DNA from: Halobaculum litoreum
GTDB lineage: Archaea > Halobacteriota > Halobacteria > Halobacteriales > Haloferacaceae
Assembly: GCF_030127125.1 (NCBI RefSeq)
Contig: NZ_CP126156.1
Span: 62,001 to 126,000 of the forward strand
DNA length: 64,000 nucleotides
Direction: 5' to 3'
Under the pieces are notes generated by a model that was not told the DNA's origin, did no database searches, and saw nothing but the letters and a program-made list of their open reading frames with translations. The position numbers and the translations under genes are program-made. Positions 8,445 to 16,461 of this stretch are shown here, piece after piece (the first letter of the stretch is position 1; every line of letters begins with the position of its first letter).

Positions 8445-9522
8445 TCACCGGTCGGGGCCGGTCGGGCTGACCGTGACGGCGACGCCGCGCTCGGCCAGCC
8501 GGACGACGACCGGGCCGACGGGGGGACAGACGGCCCAGTCGACGCGCTCCGTCTCGCCGTCGACGGTGACGTCGAACACGTAGCCGGCCGCGGGGGGACG
8601 GCCGCGGGCACCGTCGTCGCGGCGCCGCCGGCGAGGGTGAACGAGCGCGCGAACCGCTCGCGCCCGTCCGCGGCGACGGCGACGGAGAGGGTCGCCTCGG
8701 CTTCCAGGTCGTTCCGGACGCGGAGGTCCCGCACGAGCAGGTCACACAGGAACCGCGGCTCGTCGTCGAGGCGGAGGACGAGCGAGCCGTCGGCGAGCGG
8801 TTGCCACCGGAACGTCGCGGTCGTCCCGCCGTCGACGCCGGCCCGGACGCGAACCGCCGCGCTCGGCACCGCGAGCGGGACCGTCAGTCGGCTCCCGGCC
8901 GGCACGTCCAGCGTGGCCGTCGTGGCCGCCCCGCCGGTGTCCGCCGAGAGCGTGACCCGGCGGGCCGACCCGGGGCGTCGACGAGGAGCGGCACCGTCCC
9001 CCGTCGACGCCGACGAGCCCCCGGGTCCGCCGCCACGAACGGCGCGACCTCGCGCGGGTCGTACAGCGAGAACGCCCGGACCGCCGCGCCGACGCCGACG
9101 CCGAGGTGGGCGCCGCCGTCGCCCGGGTCCCACGTCGTCTCGGTCCCCCGCCCGTCCGCGGCCGTCACGCGGACGGCGTACTCCCGCGCGGCCCCGAACA
9201 CCCCCGGGATCCGGGTCTCCCCGCCGCCCGGAACCCGGACCGTCCGGTCGAGGACCGGCGTCTCCCCCTCCCGGACGGCGACCCGGACGGCCACGGCGTC
9301 GAGCCGCCGGTTCCCGACCACGACGGCCCGAGGCGTCGCCAGCGCGTCGTTCGCCGCCGCGCCGTACGGCGTGGGCGTGGCGGTCGGCGTCGGCGTCGGG
9401 GTGGGCGTCCCCCGCAGCGCCGGGTTCACCGTCCGGGACCGCTCCCCAGAGCCGTCGGCGCCGCAGCCGGCCAGCCCCGCGACTCCTGCCGCGACCGCCG
9501 AGAGGACCGCCCGTCTGAACAT
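8445..9522 (-). CDS. Predicted Tat-type lipoprotein, paralogue A (two frame breaks)
   Basis: About 359 residues when corrected. The N-terminus MFRRAVLSAV is followed by a hydrophobic stretch and the lipobox LAGC (Cys about 18-20), as in haloarchaeal Tat lipoproteins. A Thr/Pro linker (TPTPTPTATPTP) then leads into several predicted beta-sandwich segments. The protein would sit on the outer face of the membrane; its function is unknown. The tandem neighbour is a clear paralogue (shared TVNPALR, DLLxRDxxVxN, RxFTLAGG-like segments, equal length). Single bases appear missing near 8971-8977 and in the G run at 8591-8597; both lie in G/C runs and both restore the paralogue-like frame. Confidence 0.75.
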
Positions 9523-9645
9523 GGTCGCGCTACGGCCGGCGGGCACGTGAAAGCGACCCACCGTCGCTGACGGGGTGTGATCCGGTGTCGTCGGGAGCGC
9601 TCCGGTGGCGTCGGGTGTCGCCGGGGGCGGTCCCGGACCGGCGGG

Positions 9646-10727
9646 TCACTCGACCGCGCGCGACCCGACCGCGATGCCGTCGTCGGTCACGCGGACCGTC
9701 AACGGCCCCCGGGCGGGACACCGGTCGAGCCGACGGCGGACCTCGCGGTCCCCGTGGCTCGCGGCGACGAGGAACTCCCCCGCCGGCGACACCGCCGTCG
9801 GCACGGTGACGCTCCCGCCCGCGACGGGGTACACCGTCCAGTCGAGGCTGGTGCGGCCGTCGGCGACCACCTCCACGTCGACGGCGGCGTCGTCGTCGGT
9901 CGCGTTCTCGACGACCACGTCGCGGATCAGGAGGTCACACACCAGCCGCGGCGGCGAGCCGTGCAGACAGTACAGCGCCCCGTCCTCGCCGGGGAGCCAC
10001 TCCCGTCGGTCGCTCCCCGCGGCGGTGTCGACCGCGACCGACACCGGCCCGTCGGGCATCGACACCGGGACGGGGACCCGCGAGGCGGCCGGCACGCGGA
10101 GGTCGACCCCCGCGGAGCCGTCGCCGTCGGCGAACGAGAGCCGGACGCGACCGCCCTCGCCCGGCGTGTCGACGACGACCGTGCCGGTCGCGGTCGCCCC
10201 GCCGACGACCACCCCGCCGGTCGACCCGACGACGAACTCGGGCGCCGTCGACGGCGGGTAGCTGTCGCGCGTCGCGACGCTCCCCCGAGGTCGATCTCGA
10301 GGTCGCCGCCGCCCGCGCGAGGGGCCCACTCGAAGCGGCCGCGGCGGCGGTCGGTGGTTCGCACCTCCACGTCGTACGTCCGCGCGGCGCCGATGACGGC
10401 GTCGAGCCGGACCCGGTCGGCCGGCGGCACGCGCAGGGTCCGTTCGACGGCCACCGTGTCGCCGTCGGCGATCCGGAGCGCGATCCAGTCGGGGCCGACG
10501 AGCCGGTTCCGGACGACGACCGAGCGGGGACGGTCGAGGCTGTCGGCCGCGGCCGAGCCGTACGCCGGCGGCTCCGGCGTGGGCGTGGCGGTCGGCGTCG
10601 GCGTCCCCGTCGGGGTGTCCCGCAGCGCCGGGTTCACCGTCCGCCGGCCGCCGCTCTCCCCGGACGAACAGCCGGCGAGCCCCGCGAGCGCGGCGACGCC
10701 GGCGGACAGGAACCGCCGTCGATCCAT
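9646..10727 (-). CDS. Predicted Tat-type lipoprotein, paralogue B (one frame break)
   Basis: About 360 residues when corrected. It begins MDRRRFLSAGVAALAGLAGC: a twin-arginine signal (RRRF) with a lipobox ending at Cys20. A TP-repeat linker precedes beta-rich domains (VVVDTPGEGGRVRLSF, PVSVAVDTAAGS). It is the paralogue of the gene at 8445-9522, in the same orientation with a 123-nt gap, so this looks like a tandem duplication. One G appears missing in the run at 10282-10286. The pair is bracketed by two PhoU-family genes, and a link to phosphate supply is possible but not shown. It is not recognisably an ABC substrate-binding protein. Confidence 0.75.
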
Positions 10728-10812
10728 GGACGCGGTACGCGCGGGCCGTACAAGAAGCCCCGCCGCGCTCGCCGTCCCGCGCCGGAGCGGCGGCCGTCGC
10801 CGCACGAACCGA

Positions 10813-10845: not shown

Positions 10846-11517
10846 ATGCCCAGAGAGAAGTACCAGGAACGCCTCGCGGAGCTTCGCGAGGACGTGCTCT
10901 ACATGAGCGAGATCGTCGCCGAGCGGCTCCGCATGGGGATGGACGCGCTCGCCGAGAAGGACGAGGCGCTCGCACAACGGGTCATCGACGAGGACTCCGA
11001 GGTGAACCGCCTGTACCTCGACCTCGAACAGGACTGCGTCGACCTGCTGGCGCTCCAACAGCCCGTCGCCGGCGACCTCCGCTTCGTCACGGCGTCGTTC
11101 AAGATCATCACCGACCTCGAACGCATCGGCGACCTCGCGACCAACCTCGGCGAGTACACCCTCCAGGCCGAGCGCGACGTGTTCCCCGACGTCGACGTCC
11201 AGCGCATCGGCGAGGCCACGCTCGACATGCTCGACGACGCGATGCGCGCGTACGCCGACGAGGACGCCGAGGCGTGTTTCGCCGTCGCCGCGACCGACGA
11301 CGACGTCGACGAGCTGTGTGAGACCGCCTCGACGGACGTGATGCTCGACCTCATCGAGGGGGACGAACTCGACACCGCCGACCCCGAGACGCTGATGGCG
11401 GACGTCTCGCGCCTGCTGCTCACGATCCGCGACCTCGAGCGCGTCGGCGACCACGCGGTCAACATCGCCGCGCGGACGCTGTACATGATCGAGAACGACG
11501 ACGCGCTGATCTACTAA
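10846..11517 (+). CDS. phoU: Phosphate signalling regulator PhoU
   Basis: A 223-residue canonical PhoU: two three-helix bundles with repeated metal-cluster motifs, TDLERIGDLATNLGEY (about 92-107) and RDLERVGDHAVNIAARTLY near the C-terminus. PhoU restrains the Pst phosphate transporter and, in archaea, works without a classical PhoR kinase. The ATG at 10846 has a TATA element 26-33 nt upstream. The gene is convergent with the 11.7-14.8 kb genes. A hairpin-forming repeat begins 3 nt after the stop. It lacks the AbrB domain of the other PhoU protein in this window. Confidence 0.93.
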   Translation: MPREKYQERLAELREDVLYMSEIVAERLRMGMDALAEKDEALAQRVIDEDSEVNRLYLDLEQDCVDLLALQQPVAGDLRFVTASFKIITDLERIGDLATNLGEYTLQAERDVFPDVDVQRIGEATLDMLDDAMRAYADEDAEACFAVAATDDDVDELCETASTDVMLDLIEGDELDTADPETLMADVSRLLLTIRDLERVGDHAVNIAARTLYMIENDDALIY

Positions 11518-11520
11518 CCG

Positions 11521-11640
11521 ACCACTTTTCGCGGGGGCCTCGCGCCCTTCGGGCGCTCGACCCCCGCCAAAACCCGTCGATGATCAAAGGCCGGACCCTC
11601 CCTTCGGTCGGGTCCGGTGAACCGCTCGCTTCGCTCGCGG
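11521..11640 (+). repeat. Palindromic intergenic repeat, left copy
   Basis: The element begins just past the phoU stop with a T run (CTTTT). A hairpin of about 37 nt with a TTCG loop (11532-11568) follows, then CAAAACCCGT and AAAGGCC, a second hairpin (CCGGACCCTCCCTTCGGTC...) and CCGCTCGCTTCGCTCGCGG. An inverted, diverged copy lies at 12490-12598. It may act as a terminator for phoU. No coding frame is evident. Confidence 0.75.
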
Positions 11641-11767
11641 ATGCTATCTCCGCAGTCCCGGCCTACGAGTTGTCGTATTTCGGGCCGCTCTGAAACGTGG
11701 AGCAGTCAGCGATAGATACAGGGCAGGTGGTTAGGGCTGCCGTCTGATCGACTGATGTGAATTGTAC

Positions 11768-12304
11768 TTATCCGCACGAATGCGCGACACTCACACCATA
11801 GGAGGTCCGGGTTGCCCGGTATCCGTTCAGGTCGAGGTCATCACAGTTCATAGTCATATAGGCCTGTATTTGATTTTCCGTTTCGTAGACCGTAATGACC
11901 AGTGCAAAGTTCACTGGGAGGTGTTCCTCGTCGATCTCCGTTCGGTTTGATTCACCGGGCCCGACAGTAAATCGGCCGTGGAAATAGGCTGATTCGGGTA
12001 ATTCGATTCTGTTGTATGTTTGATTTTCACCCGAATATGTTTTTGAACTTCCTTCGGAAATGGGTCCCTCGCTCACTCGGCCATCGTTCATATAGGCGGT
12101 GACATTTGCCGGTCGCTGGACTACAAAGACCTCAAACGTCGTTGTCTCATTGATCGTATTGTTGAACTGAATCCTGACGGGATGATCCTGCTTGGTAGGC
12201 TGGTCAATTGGCAACATACACCCTGCCAAAACAAGGAGTGTACCGAGACCAAGTATTGAGAGAAGGTGCCTTGTGTTGCCAGCACGGGCGGACCGTCCAC
12301 TCAT
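11768..12304 (-). CDS. Low-GC predicted lipoprotein of unknown function
   Basis: 178 residues from the ATG at 12304. The N-terminus is followed by a hydrophobic stretch and the lipobox LAGC (about residue 29). The mature part is rich in Asn, Thr, Ser and Tyr with several N-x-S/T sequons (FNNTINETT), so it is probably exported and glycosylated. GC content is far below that of the neighbours, and A/T-ending codons are common. It sits alone between convergent phoU and cdc48, flanked by inverted repeats, which suggests recent acquisition. An in-frame ATG exists further upstream (12370), but it would bury the signal sequence. I do not recognise the family. Confidence 0.6.
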   Translation of the reverse strand: MSGRSARAGNTRHLLSILGLGTLLVLAGCMLPIDQPTKQDHPVRIQFNNTINETTTFEVFVVQRPANVTAYMNDGRVSEGPISEGSSKTYSGENQTYNRIELPESAYFHGRFTVGPGESNRTEIDEEHLPVNFALVITVYETENQIQAYMTMNCDDLDLNGYRATRTSYGVSVAHSCG

Positions 12305-12489
12305 ATCTCTTCGTTGGGTTACACCCTCGTGAATAGTTACTTCGTACTCATATGTTATGCCGACGATCAAAAACTTCGCAGCTCATATCGATCAGCTACT
12401 TGACCCTCAACTACTCGAAATAACGTTCTACCGATTTTCTCGGGCACACAAATAGAAACCCACCTGCGCTCGCGGTCCACACTACGGTA

Positions 12490-12598
12490 GTTCTGCGAGC
12501 GAGGGCCGAAGGCCCGAGCGAGCGGCCTTTTGGCATGAACGGGTTTTGACGGGGTTCGAGCGCGCCGAAAGCGCGCGAGGACCCCGTTAAAAGAGGTT
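12490..12598 (-). repeat. Palindromic intergenic repeat, right (inverted) copy
   Basis: Read on the minus strand from the cdc48 stop: CTCTTTTAACGGGG, a hairpin with arms GCGCGC around TTTC, CAAAACCCGTTCATG, AAAAGGCC, then a second strong hairpin (GCTCGGGCC-TTC-GGCCCTCGC). Order and spacing match the left copy at 11521-11640 in inverted orientation, with only scattered differences. It likely ends the cdc48 transcript. Confidence 0.75.
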
Positions 12599-14824
12599 CT
12601 ACTGGAAGCCGATCCGGCCGCTCCGGTCGGCGCGGAGGCTGTCGGTGCCGCCGCCCTTGAACTGCTCTTCGATGTCCGCGTAGTAGTCCATGATCGCCTC
12701 CGAGATGGTGGGCCGGACGTTCTCCATCGCCTGCTCGAAGTGGCGCATGTTCACGTCCTCGGCGTCGTCGTCCTCGCGCAGCGCCTGGATGGCGGCCTCG
12801 CGGGCGATCGACTCCAGGTCGGAGCCGACGTAGCCGTCGGTGCGCTCGGCGAGTTCGCGCAGGCTCACGTCCGCCGACAGCGGCGTGTCGCCGGTGTGGA
12901 TCTTGAGGATCTGCTCGCGCCCCTCCTCGTCGGGCTGGCCGATCATCACGAGCCGGTCGAACCGGCCCGAACGGATGAGCGCCGGGTCGATCATGTCCGG
13001 GCGGTTCGTCGCCCCGATCACCATCACGTTGCCCATCTCCTCGAGGCCGTCCAACTCCGTCAGGAGCTGGTTGACGACGCGCTCGGAGACGTTGTTCCCC
13101 ATCTCCTGCCCGCGGCTGGGCGCGAGGCTGTCCAGCTCGTCGAAGAAGATGACGGTGGGCGACACCTGCCGGGCCTTCCGGAACGTCTGCCGGATCGCCT
13201 TCTCGGACTCACCGACCCACTTGCTCAGCAGTTGGGGCCCGCGCACCGAGATGAAGTTCGCGTTCGTCTCGTTGGCGACGGCCTTCGCCATCAGCGTCTT
13301 CCCGGTGCCGGGCGGGCCGTACAGCAGCACGCCCTTCGGCGCCTCGATGCCCATCCGGTCGAACTTCTCGGGCGTCGTCAGCGGCCACTCGACGGCCTCC
13401 TTCACCTGTTGCTGGGCGTCGGCGAGGCCGCCGACGTCCTCCCAGGTGACCTTCGGGAGCTCGACGAGCACCTCCCGCATCGCCGAGGGCTCCACCTCCG
13501 CGAGCGCGCCCTGGAAGTCGTTGCGCTTGACGATCATCCGGTCGACGAGGCTCGGCGGGATGTCCTCCTCGTCGAGGTCGATCTCCGGGAGGTACCTGCG
13601 CAGCGCCTTCATCGCCGCCTCCTTCGTCAGGCTCTCGATGTCCGCGCCGACGAAGCCGTGCGTCTCGTCGGCGAGGTGGTCGAGGTCGACGTCGTCCGAC
13701 AGCGGCATGCCGCGGGTGTGGATCTGGAGGATCTCCTTGCGCCCCACCTCGTCCGGGACGCCGATCTCGATCTCGCGGTCGAAGCGCCCGGGACGGCGCA
13801 GCGCGGGGTCGACGGAGTCGACGCGGTTCGTCGCCGCGATGACGATCACCTGTCCGCGCGTCTCCAGCCCGTCCATCATCGTGAGCAGTTGGGCGACGAC
13901 GCGGCGTTCGACCTCGCCGGTGACGTCCTCGCGCTTGGGCGCGATGGAGTCCAACTCGTCGATGAAGATGATGCTGGGACTCTCGTCTTTCGCGTCCTCG
14001 AATATCTCGCGCAGTTGCTGTTCGGACTCGCCGTAGTACTTCGAGATGATCTCCGGCCCGGCGATGGAGAAGAAACTCGCCGAGGTCTCGTTGGCGACCG
14101 CCTTCGCGAGCAGCGTCTTCCCGGTGCCGGGCGGGCCGTGGAGCAGCACGCCCTGCGGCGGCTCGATCCCCAGTTTCTTGAAGATCTGGGGGTGTTTCAT
14201 CGGCAGTTCGACCATCTCGCGGACGCGCTGGATCTCGCCTTGGAGGCCGCCGATGTCCTCGTAGGTGATGCCGCCGCCGGTCTTCTCGAACCCGGAGATG
14301 GGCTCCTCGCGGAGCTCCACCTCGGTGTCCTCGGTGATGAGGCAGACGCCCTCGGGCTCGGTGTCGACGGCGATCAGCGGGATCGCCTGCCCGGGCGAGC
14401 GCATGAACGGGTGGTTCGTGGACGACATCACGGGGACGATGTCGCGCTCGACGACCGGGCGCTTGAGGATCTGGCGTTTCACCATGCCGGCGGCGTCGGA
14501 TCCGAACTGGACCGAGGCCTCCTCCGGCGGCGCGAGCGTCAGCGACTCGGCCTTCTTCGCCTCGGCCTTGCGGATGGTGACGCGCTCGCCGATGCCGACG
14601 TCGGCGTTCTGGCGCGTGAAACCGTCGATGCGGACGGTGTCGGTGTTCCAGTCCTGCCGGTCGGCGCGCCACACCTTCGCGGCGGTCGTCTCGGCGCCCT
14701 CGATCTCGATGATGTCGCCGGGGGAGAGCTTTAAGTGCAGCAGGGTGTCCGGGTCGAGGCGGGCGATCCCCCTCCCGGAGTCGTTCGGGTACGCCTTCGC
14801 GACTTCGAGTTGGACTTCATTCAT
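12599..14824 (-). CDS. cdc48: CDC48/VAT-type AAA+ ATPase
   Basis: 741 residues. The N-domain (double-psi barrel plus beta-clam, about 1-180) is followed by two AAA modules. Each has Walker A GPPGTGKT (the first after GVLLH, the second after GVLLY) and Walker B ([12 protein letters not shown] and [12 protein letters not shown]); SRH arginines lie in RRPGRFD and IRSGRFD. The hexamer unfolds proteins for the proteasome. The second pore loop KWVGESE is typical. The ATG at 14824 ([15 protein letters not shown]) is chosen by family length. It is divergent from larC with 225 nt between them. Confidence 0.96.
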
Positions 14825-15049
14825 GATGGATGGACGGGTGTTCGTTCGAAATACGTCGGTCCGGACGGCGGTTAAGCCCTCCGTTGCGTGTCGTCGGGCC
14901 GGAACGTCGCTCCCACTGGCCCCCCGGACGGACGTAGGACGTGCTAATCTATCGCACGGTATGGCGTCCGGCTTGAAAACACCACCGGCGTCGACACGCG
15001 GCGGCCGCGTGGCGGTAGCGACTTGTCGTCGGCCCGCGACCCTCCGGCC

Positions 15050-16461
15050 ATGCGAACGATCGCCTTCGACGGCCGGATGGGCGCTTCCGGGGACATGCTG
15101 CTGGGCGCGCTCGTCGCGGCCGGCGCGGACCGCGACGTCCTCGCGCCCGTCGAGGACGCCCTCCCCGTCCGCTACGAGTTCGAGTCGGTGGACCGCAACG
15201 GCATCGCCAGCACCCGCGCGCGCGTCCGCCACCGCGACGCCGACGGCGACGGGGGAGCCGACGCCGGGGACCACGACCACAGTCACGACCACGACCACAG
15301 TCACGACCACGACCACAGTCACGACCACGACCACAGTCACGACCACGACCACAGTCACGACCACGACCACAGTCACGACCACGACCACAGCCACGACCAC
15401 GACCACCACGACCACGACGCCGAGGGACACGGCCCGCAGCGGACGTACGCCGAGGTGGTCGAGTTGGTCGAGGGGATGGCGCTCCCGGCGGGCGTCCGCG
15501 AGGACGCGCTCGCGGTGTTCGAGGTCCTCGGCGAGGCGGAGTCGTCGGTCCACGGGTCGGATCTCGACGCGACCCACTTCCACGAGGTCGGCGCCGACGA
15601 CGCCGTCGCCGACGTGGTCGGCGCGTGCCTGCTGTTCGACGACCTCGACGCCGACCGCGTGGTGACGACGCCGCTGGCGACCGGCGGCGGCGAGGTGGAG
15701 TTCAGCCACGGCGTCTACCCGGTCCCGGTCCCCGCGGTCGTCGAGATCGCCGAGCGCGCCGACTGGTCGCTGCGGGGCGGCCCGGTCGACGCCGAACTGC
15801 TCACCCCCACGGGCGCGGCGATCCTCGCGCACTACGCCGCGGGCGTCGAGCGGCTCCCTCGCTCCGGGTCGAGCAGTCGGGGTACGGCGCCGGCGGCTGG
15901 ACGTTCCCCGACCGGCCGAACGTCCTCCGCGCGCTCGTCGGCGAGGTCGAACGGGGCGGCCTCGTCCGCGACGACGTGGCCGTGCTCGAGACGACCCTCG
16001 ACGACGCGGCCCCGGAGGTGCTGGGCGGCCTGCAGGAGACGCTGGCCGACGCCGGCGCCCGCGACGTGTCGGTCCTGCCGGCGACGATGAAGAAGTCGCG
16101 TCCGGGCCACCTCGTGAAGGTGATCTGCAAGCCCGAGGACGCCGACCGCGTCGCCCGCCGGCTCGCGGTCGAGACGGGCACCCTCGGGATCCGCGAGGGC
16201 GGCGCGAGCCACCGGTGGATCGCCGAGCGCTCCTTCGAGACGGTCGAACTCGCCGTCGACGGCGAGACGTACGAGGTGCCGGTGAAGGTCGCGGGCGACG
16301 GCGACGGCACGGTGTACGACGTGAGCGCCGAGTACGACGACGCCGCCGCGGTCGCCCGCGCGGCGGGTCTCCCGGTCCGCGAGGTGCTCCGCCGGGCCGA
16401 GGCGGCCGCGAGCGACCTGCTCGACGCCGACGCCGCGACCGACCCCGACGACGAGCGATGA
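15050..16461 (+). CDS. larC: LarC-type nickel-pincer cofactor synthase with long His/Asp tract (one frame break)
   Basis: About 470 residues when corrected. LarC inserts nickel into the pyridinium bis-thiocarboxylate cofactor of lactate racemase-type enzymes. The start [19 protein letters not shown] is diagnostic; [11 protein letters not shown] (about 165-175), the conserved [11 protein letters not shown] and [14 protein letters not shown] follow. An insertion of about 49 residues (about 75-123) is almost pure His-Asp-Ser and should bind or store Ni or Zn. One base is missing near 15855-15858; the downstream frame resumes as [14 protein letters not shown]. No larA, larB or larE lies in the window. 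The 3' end overlaps the next gene by 4 nt. Confidence 0.88.
15272..15417 (+). repeat. 18-bp in-frame tandem repeat encoding HDHDHS
   Basis: Seven near-identical 18-nt units (cacgaccacgaccacagt type), followed by a degenerate unit. Third positions barely vary, so the array has expanded recently or been homogenised. It encodes the metal-binding tract of LarC. Confidence 0.92.

Follow-up and report, generated by a model that had tools for sequence, protein, structure and literature searches.

Inverted Copies of a Hairpin-Forming Gene-End Repeat Around a Low-GC Islet Between phoU and cdc48 in Halobaculum litoreum

In the window, the 64,000-nucleotide stretch of the Halobaculum litoreum genome analysed here, the stop codons of the convergent genes phoU and cdc48 are each followed by a copy of the same palindromic repeat, with a low-GC lipoprotein gene between them. 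The two repeats appear to belong, as independent copies, to a single Halobacteria family of non-coding repeats that fold into hairpins. In the genus of the window, the family seems to settle directly behind stop codons and to contribute a T run and hairpin of its own. A copy most likely works as a gene-end transcription terminator, with T runs provided on both strands, and the family seems to behave as a small transposase-free mobile repeat, as judged from near-identical copies in other genera and, by extension, for the genus of the window. The lipoprotein gene is probably a laterally acquired filling of a tolerated, species-variable site rather than cargo of the repeats. The inverted repeats at the edges of this islet appear to have served as recombination sites: the inner segment has been flipped in some species and has collapsed in another, an outcome that is observed directly and that general recombination at short inverted homology would account for. 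The probability of this reading as a whole is put at about 0.7.

The family, which is apparently undescribed in the literature consulted and in Rfam, combines an evolutionarily conserved fold with a position at gene ends in many genera of one archaeal class. It provides a natural setting in which the origin, movement, and replacement of archaeal terminators can be tested, and it would explain how a small low-GC islet changes its content and flips while both conserved genes remain unharmed.

Anatomy and Fold of the Repeat

In both copies (Table 1), the stop codon is followed by CGACCACTTTT or GAACCTCTTTT, a G+C hairpin, the core CAAAACCCGTNNATGNNNAAAGGCC, and a second hairpin. The core occurs with zero mismatches at 11568-11592 (+) and 12524-12548 (-), where the number expected in the window by chance is 0.00 (100 shuffles), and an inverted match of 60 nt at 75% connects the two copies. 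Under R1, the covariance model of the family, the next full-length window site scores 13.5 bits, and the genome of the window (G000; 3.04 Mb, 86% complete) holds no third copy. The perfect core and the R1 scores confirm the sequence-only reading, made before this analysis, in its claim that the same arrangement stands inverted behind both stops. The copies are inverted only because phoU and cdc48 converge, each copy lying behind its own gene. That reading had also listed the T run, the hairpin, and CAAAACCC as successive parts; all are present, but in each copy the A run of CAAAACCC is base-paired to the T run, which makes the two the arms of a single hairpin. An Rfam scan of 11300-12800 gave no credible match to a curated covariance model. 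Other ACCNCTTTT sites in G000, considered as decayed copies, proved to be unrelated and lie mostly just upstream of starts.

Table 1. Repeat copies, islet parts, and genes at the phoU-cdc48 junction (window positions).
Feature	Position	Strand	Basis
phoU, 223 aa, stop TAA 11515-11517	10846..11517	+	Pfam PhoU, E 2.7e-43
Repeat copy 1, hairpin 1 and core	11519..11590	+	R1 76.0 bits; MFE fold, same pairs
Copy 1 sub-parts	CGAC 11519-11522, CAC, TTTT 11526-11529, G+C stem, AAAA 11569-11572, CCC, GTCG 11576-11579, ATG 11580-11582		
Copy 1 second hairpin (CCGGACCC../..GGGTCCGG) and third palindrome with end GCGGATGCT	11591..11646	+	Sequence
Islet inner flank A	11566..11722	.	blastn, 79-87% identity to relatives
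Low-GC lipoprotein gene, 178 aa, lipobox LAGC	11768..12304	-	ORF
Islet inner flank B, extending into the core of copy 2	12375..12554	.	blastn, about 77-82% identity
Copy 2 second hairpin (GCTCGCTCGGGCC../..GGCCCTCGCTCGC), B-type end	12490..12525	-	Sequence
Repeat copy 2, hairpin 1 and core	12526..12599	-	R1 83.3 bits; MFE fold, z -4.2
Copy 2 sub-parts	GAAC 12599-12596, CTC, TTTT 12592-12589, G+C stem, AAAACCC, GTTC 12540-12537, ATG		
cdc48, 741 aa, AAA ATPase, stop TAG 12601-12599 sharing its G with the repeat	12599..14824	-	Pfam CDC48_N, AAA

Hairpin 1 is composed of a 4-bp outer stem, a 3x3 pyrimidine internal loop (CNC/CCC), a UUUU/AAAA helix, and a G+C stem in which CCU on the 5′ side is invariant, and the MFE folds of both window copies give this same structure. 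The outer stem exists in three versions (GAAC/GTTC, CGAC/GTCG, and CAAC/GTTG) and is fully paired in 85 of 85 non-redundant copies, whereas 10,000 shuffles averaged 55 and never exceeded 68, the 5′ box having been picked by primary sequence alone with pairing ignored. The covariation score is 0.232, as opposed to 0.102 for shuffled sequences and 0.04-0.10 for slid controls. Hairpin 1 is followed by a second hairpin and, in A-type copies, by an additional third; the A-type end of copy 1 is also found in several relatives and in a related copy on a Halobellus plasmid. A two-hairpin module of ~55 bp can be inserted at the ATG joint, as it is in about 23 of the 79 copies from the genomes examined closely, mainly those of the genus Halobaculum and one related genus. 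The korB copy of species G009 contains the module, while that of its sister species G007 lacks it (L137, near 5042, and L261). Tandem modules were seen at L151 and L122.

Distribution and Position Behind Stop Codons

In a covariance model search, 131 of 292 Halobacteria genomes, belonging to 43 of 77 genera, were found to contain 1-13 copies each, and all ten genomes of the genus of the window carry copies. Among the 79 copies, 63 begin at offsets of -2 to +6 nt relative to the stop of an identifiable, acidic, conserved gene, and several further ones follow an unassigned stop, such as that of menB. The first bases of the repeat complete the stop codon in 23 copies (T+GA or TA+G; offsets -2 and -1), as they do for cdc48 in the window. 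The host genes recur across species and include cdc48, phoU, aCPSF1, korB, menB, trxB, and others; apart from phoU and cdc48, which were tested with Pfam, these names are presumptive and come from our reading of the proteins. In G000, aCPSF1 and korB are without the repeat and have no TTTT near the gene end. The gene that resembles aCPSF1, the archaeal termination ribonuclease, itself carries the repeat in six of ten related genomes (L244, L246, L247, L248, L250, and L252). When copies with no upstream gene found were searched with Rfam for preceding non-coding RNAs, only an unrelated tRNA was returned. One orthologous set of copies (L133, L134, L152, L153, and L167) lies behind a conserved GAGGCCGCGTGGCCCGAGCCGCCCAC end, also with no Rfam match.

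Within the genus, the positions adhere so closely to stop codons that they could result from selection or vertical inheritance. The most serious alternative builds on this and regards the repeat as a gene-end RNA or terminator of purely structural nature, vertically inherited, selected, and immobile in the genus, whose hairpins are exchanged among the copies through gene conversion. In its favor are the recurrence of host genes across species, the strong structural covariation, and, for a given gene, some alleles that are 98-100% identical in different species. However, presence at the same gene is patchy, as for aCPSF1, and closely similar, plainly mobile copies exist in other genera, so that this explanation is considered unlikely, with perhaps one chance in several of being correct.

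The Islet Between phoU and cdc48

The islet is the lowest-GC stretch in the window. As the sequence-only reading had recognized, its gene is of much lower GC than its neighbors, with a GC of 0.50 and a GC3 of 0.54, compared with a GC3 of about 0.95 in phoU and cdc48. That reading had envisaged either a gene-less junction in relatives or a gene of similar GC at this locus across the clade. The former is found in G004, the sister of G000 (cdc48 99%), where about 230 bp separate the cores; the lipoprotein gene is absent from the locus in every relative examined. Distant homologues occur elsewhere in the genomes of a few relatives, and the best relatives among the matches listed (44-47%) are located on megaplasmids of other haloarchaea. 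The Gly-Cys of the lipobox is invariant in the family alignment, and a search for the lipoprotein in phages found none. Two further lipoprotein-like ORFs, at 8884-9561 (-) and 9927-10805 (-) just upstream of phoU, have normal high GC, TPTPTP linkers, and similar N-termini, and look like a duplicated pair. Adjoining cdc48, an ORF at 15023-16090 (+) contains a long (HDHDHS)n histidine-aspartate repeat and is perhaps metal-binding.

Inner flanks A and B are common to six species, in one orientation in G000, G003, G007, and G008 and inverted in G002 (judged to be Halobaculum gomorrense DSM 9297) and G009. The centers between them differ, with the lipoprotein in G000, a HalOD1 protein in G003, a small membrane protein in G008, a PALP enzyme in G007 and G009, and a remnant with a different palindrome in G002. 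The palindromic repeat CCTTTTGCTGCG..GCAAAATG..ATCAAAAGC of the G002 islet is also found behind phoU and cdc48 in G027, which suggests that several gene-end repeat families exist. The islet of G010 (L077) holds two low-GC genes of 310 and 245 aa, with no Pfam match for the first 250 aa of the larger protein or for the whole of the smaller one.

G007 and G009, which are sister species with full support, carry the same 1.5-kb segment (93%) in opposite orientations. Islet orientation is also opposite between G000 and G002, with the switch point at CAAAAGGCCG beside the core, and G006 retains a single chimeric hairpin with one arm type from each side and nothing between. Such inversions, the switch beside the core, and the exchange of contents between conserved flanks could point to a dedicated site-specific recombinase that acts on the core CAAAACCCGTTCATG to invert or exchange cassettes at gene ends. 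Yet the crossover point is not fixed, since in G007 and G009 the hairpin itself moved along with the inverted segment, and the documented inversions are only a few, which over species-level divergence require no special enzyme. A non-systematic look at the copies examined also saw no recombinase gene linked to them, and we consider a dedicated enzyme very improbable.

Even less credible is the alternative offered by the sequence-only reading, in which a non-autonomous mobile element, with the inverted repeats as its ends, brought in the lipoprotein gene. The inverted arrangement around a low-GC gene, which is indeed species-specific, speaks for it. That reading supposed that other copies might flank low-GC genes. 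G000 has no other copy, and the 63 other copies studied in relatives are mostly single, with one gene each, no bracketed cargo, and a median downstream GC of 0.70, which is normal; this argues that the repeats are not the ends of a gene-carrying element. The proposal fails on this occurrence of the repeat behind many genes without cargo. In addition, the center of the islet varies among species while the copies remain at the two stops, no second site with the same ends is seen, and none of the lipoprotein homologues (L062-L070) is flanked by the repeat. Another convergent pair with inverted copies, at the etfA-korB junction of G009, was considered as a cargo site but encloses normal-GC DNA.

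The reading preferred here, that of separate repeat copies recombining around a variable islet, keeps much of the other suggestion of the sequence-only reading, in which shared terminators later served as recombination sites. The copies behind many stops and the segment inverted between sister species fit this suggestion, whereas the terminator role is retained as a probable one, against which the shortness of the TTTT tract for a terminator has to be counted.

Hairpin Turnover and Mobility

Between G007 and G009, the palindrome is replaced in situ while the outer stem is kept. By pairwise identity, on which these comparisons rest (regular-expression type naming misassigned some copies), the hairpin interiors are 0.46-0.68 identical at cdc48, phoU, a 353-aa gene, trxB, and aCPSF1, although the gene ends are 94-100% identical, a degree of replacement between sister species that should surprise the specialist. 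At menB, the repeat interior is 57% identical and the last 30 nt before the repeat, the only stretch compared upstream, 83%. The same hairpin is kept only at a 254-aa gene and at korB. Gene conversion and deletion-coupled insertion, as in Haloquadratum, are the candidate mechanisms for this in-place replacement.

Halolamina salifodinae (G277) and other genera contain copies of about 155-195 bp, most of them 96-100% identical, at unrelated positions, with unrelated flanks and sharp borders, often after TACA-like bases. The presence of near-identical copies at unrelated sites indicates that the family is mobile. No target duplication was visible when the flanks of these copies were inspected by eye, and the repeat was sought in viral contigs and phages with no copy found. 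The lack of a Y1 transposase in G000 that could move the repeat in trans counts against mobility there: no Y1_Tnp gene was found in the repeat carriers G000 (86% complete), G003, G005, and G010, and in 60 Y1_Tnp and TnpB loci taken from relatives, model R1 gave no hit at E values up to 1. These two results, together with the low copy number and the missing GTAG tag at the hairpin foot, leave next to no likelihood that the copies are REP/BIME-type repeats mobilized by RAYT (Y1 transposase), even though the repeat is palindromic, extragenic, and often at gene ends.

A bolder proposal, and a doubtful one at present, extends the preferred reading. A mobile hairpin repeat may target gene ends and supply a terminator, and in more than one quarter of copies it also completes the stop codon. 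Its hairpin would be swapped in situ like a cassette, with outer stem and gene left in place. This would constitute a domesticated, exchangeable terminator system of haloarchaea.

Comparison With Known Systems

REP/BIME repeats, which are associated with RAYT transposases, are extragenic palindromes at gene ends (PMC2817692, PMC3733652). They exceed 100 copies per genome, in contrast to the 1-13 copies of the present family, which also has another tag sequence and for which no RAYT dependence was found.

Terminators of Haloferax volcanii consist of a T stretch followed by C just behind the gene, with hairpins near some termination sites (PMC7237163). Both window copies resemble this arrangement in having a T run and C just behind the gene (TTTT in Table 1), and termination at the T run of the repeat would fit the T-stretch-plus-C signal (PMC7237163). 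Unlike those terminators, the T run here is an arm of a conserved palindrome, belongs to a recurrent family, and is missing behind those orthologues that lack the repeat.

The PATEs of Haloquadratum walsbyi are short non-coding mobile haloarchaeal repeats with near-terminal palindromes, which are related to IS605-type transposon ends, and no terminal inverted repeats (PMC3119063). No target duplication has been seen for them, and they are prone to core deletion and are hit by other small repeats (PMC3119063). Compared with the HqIRS PATE and SMR families by their descriptions, the present repeat is similar in its near-terminal palindromes, with hairpins 1, 2, and 3 lying inside the near-identical ~160-bp copies, in the lack of target duplication by eye, and in a length of ~155-195 bp that is too short to encode a transposase. 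It differs in showing no IS605-type link, with no copy near the 60 TnpA/TnpB loci, and in its position at stop codons in the genus of the window, which is not described for PATEs (PMC3119063). Haloquadratum walsbyi also has small mobile repeats (SMR-A), "SwitchRepeats," and deletion-coupled insertions (PMC3119063). There, as here, a given position may hold different repeats, inverted repeats, or unrelated DNA when two strains are compared, and small repeats have inserted inside the palindromes of others (PMC3119063). Those exchanges are seen between strains and genome-wide, whereas the family described here shows repeated replacement of the hairpin, but not of the outer stem, behind the same genes throughout a genus.
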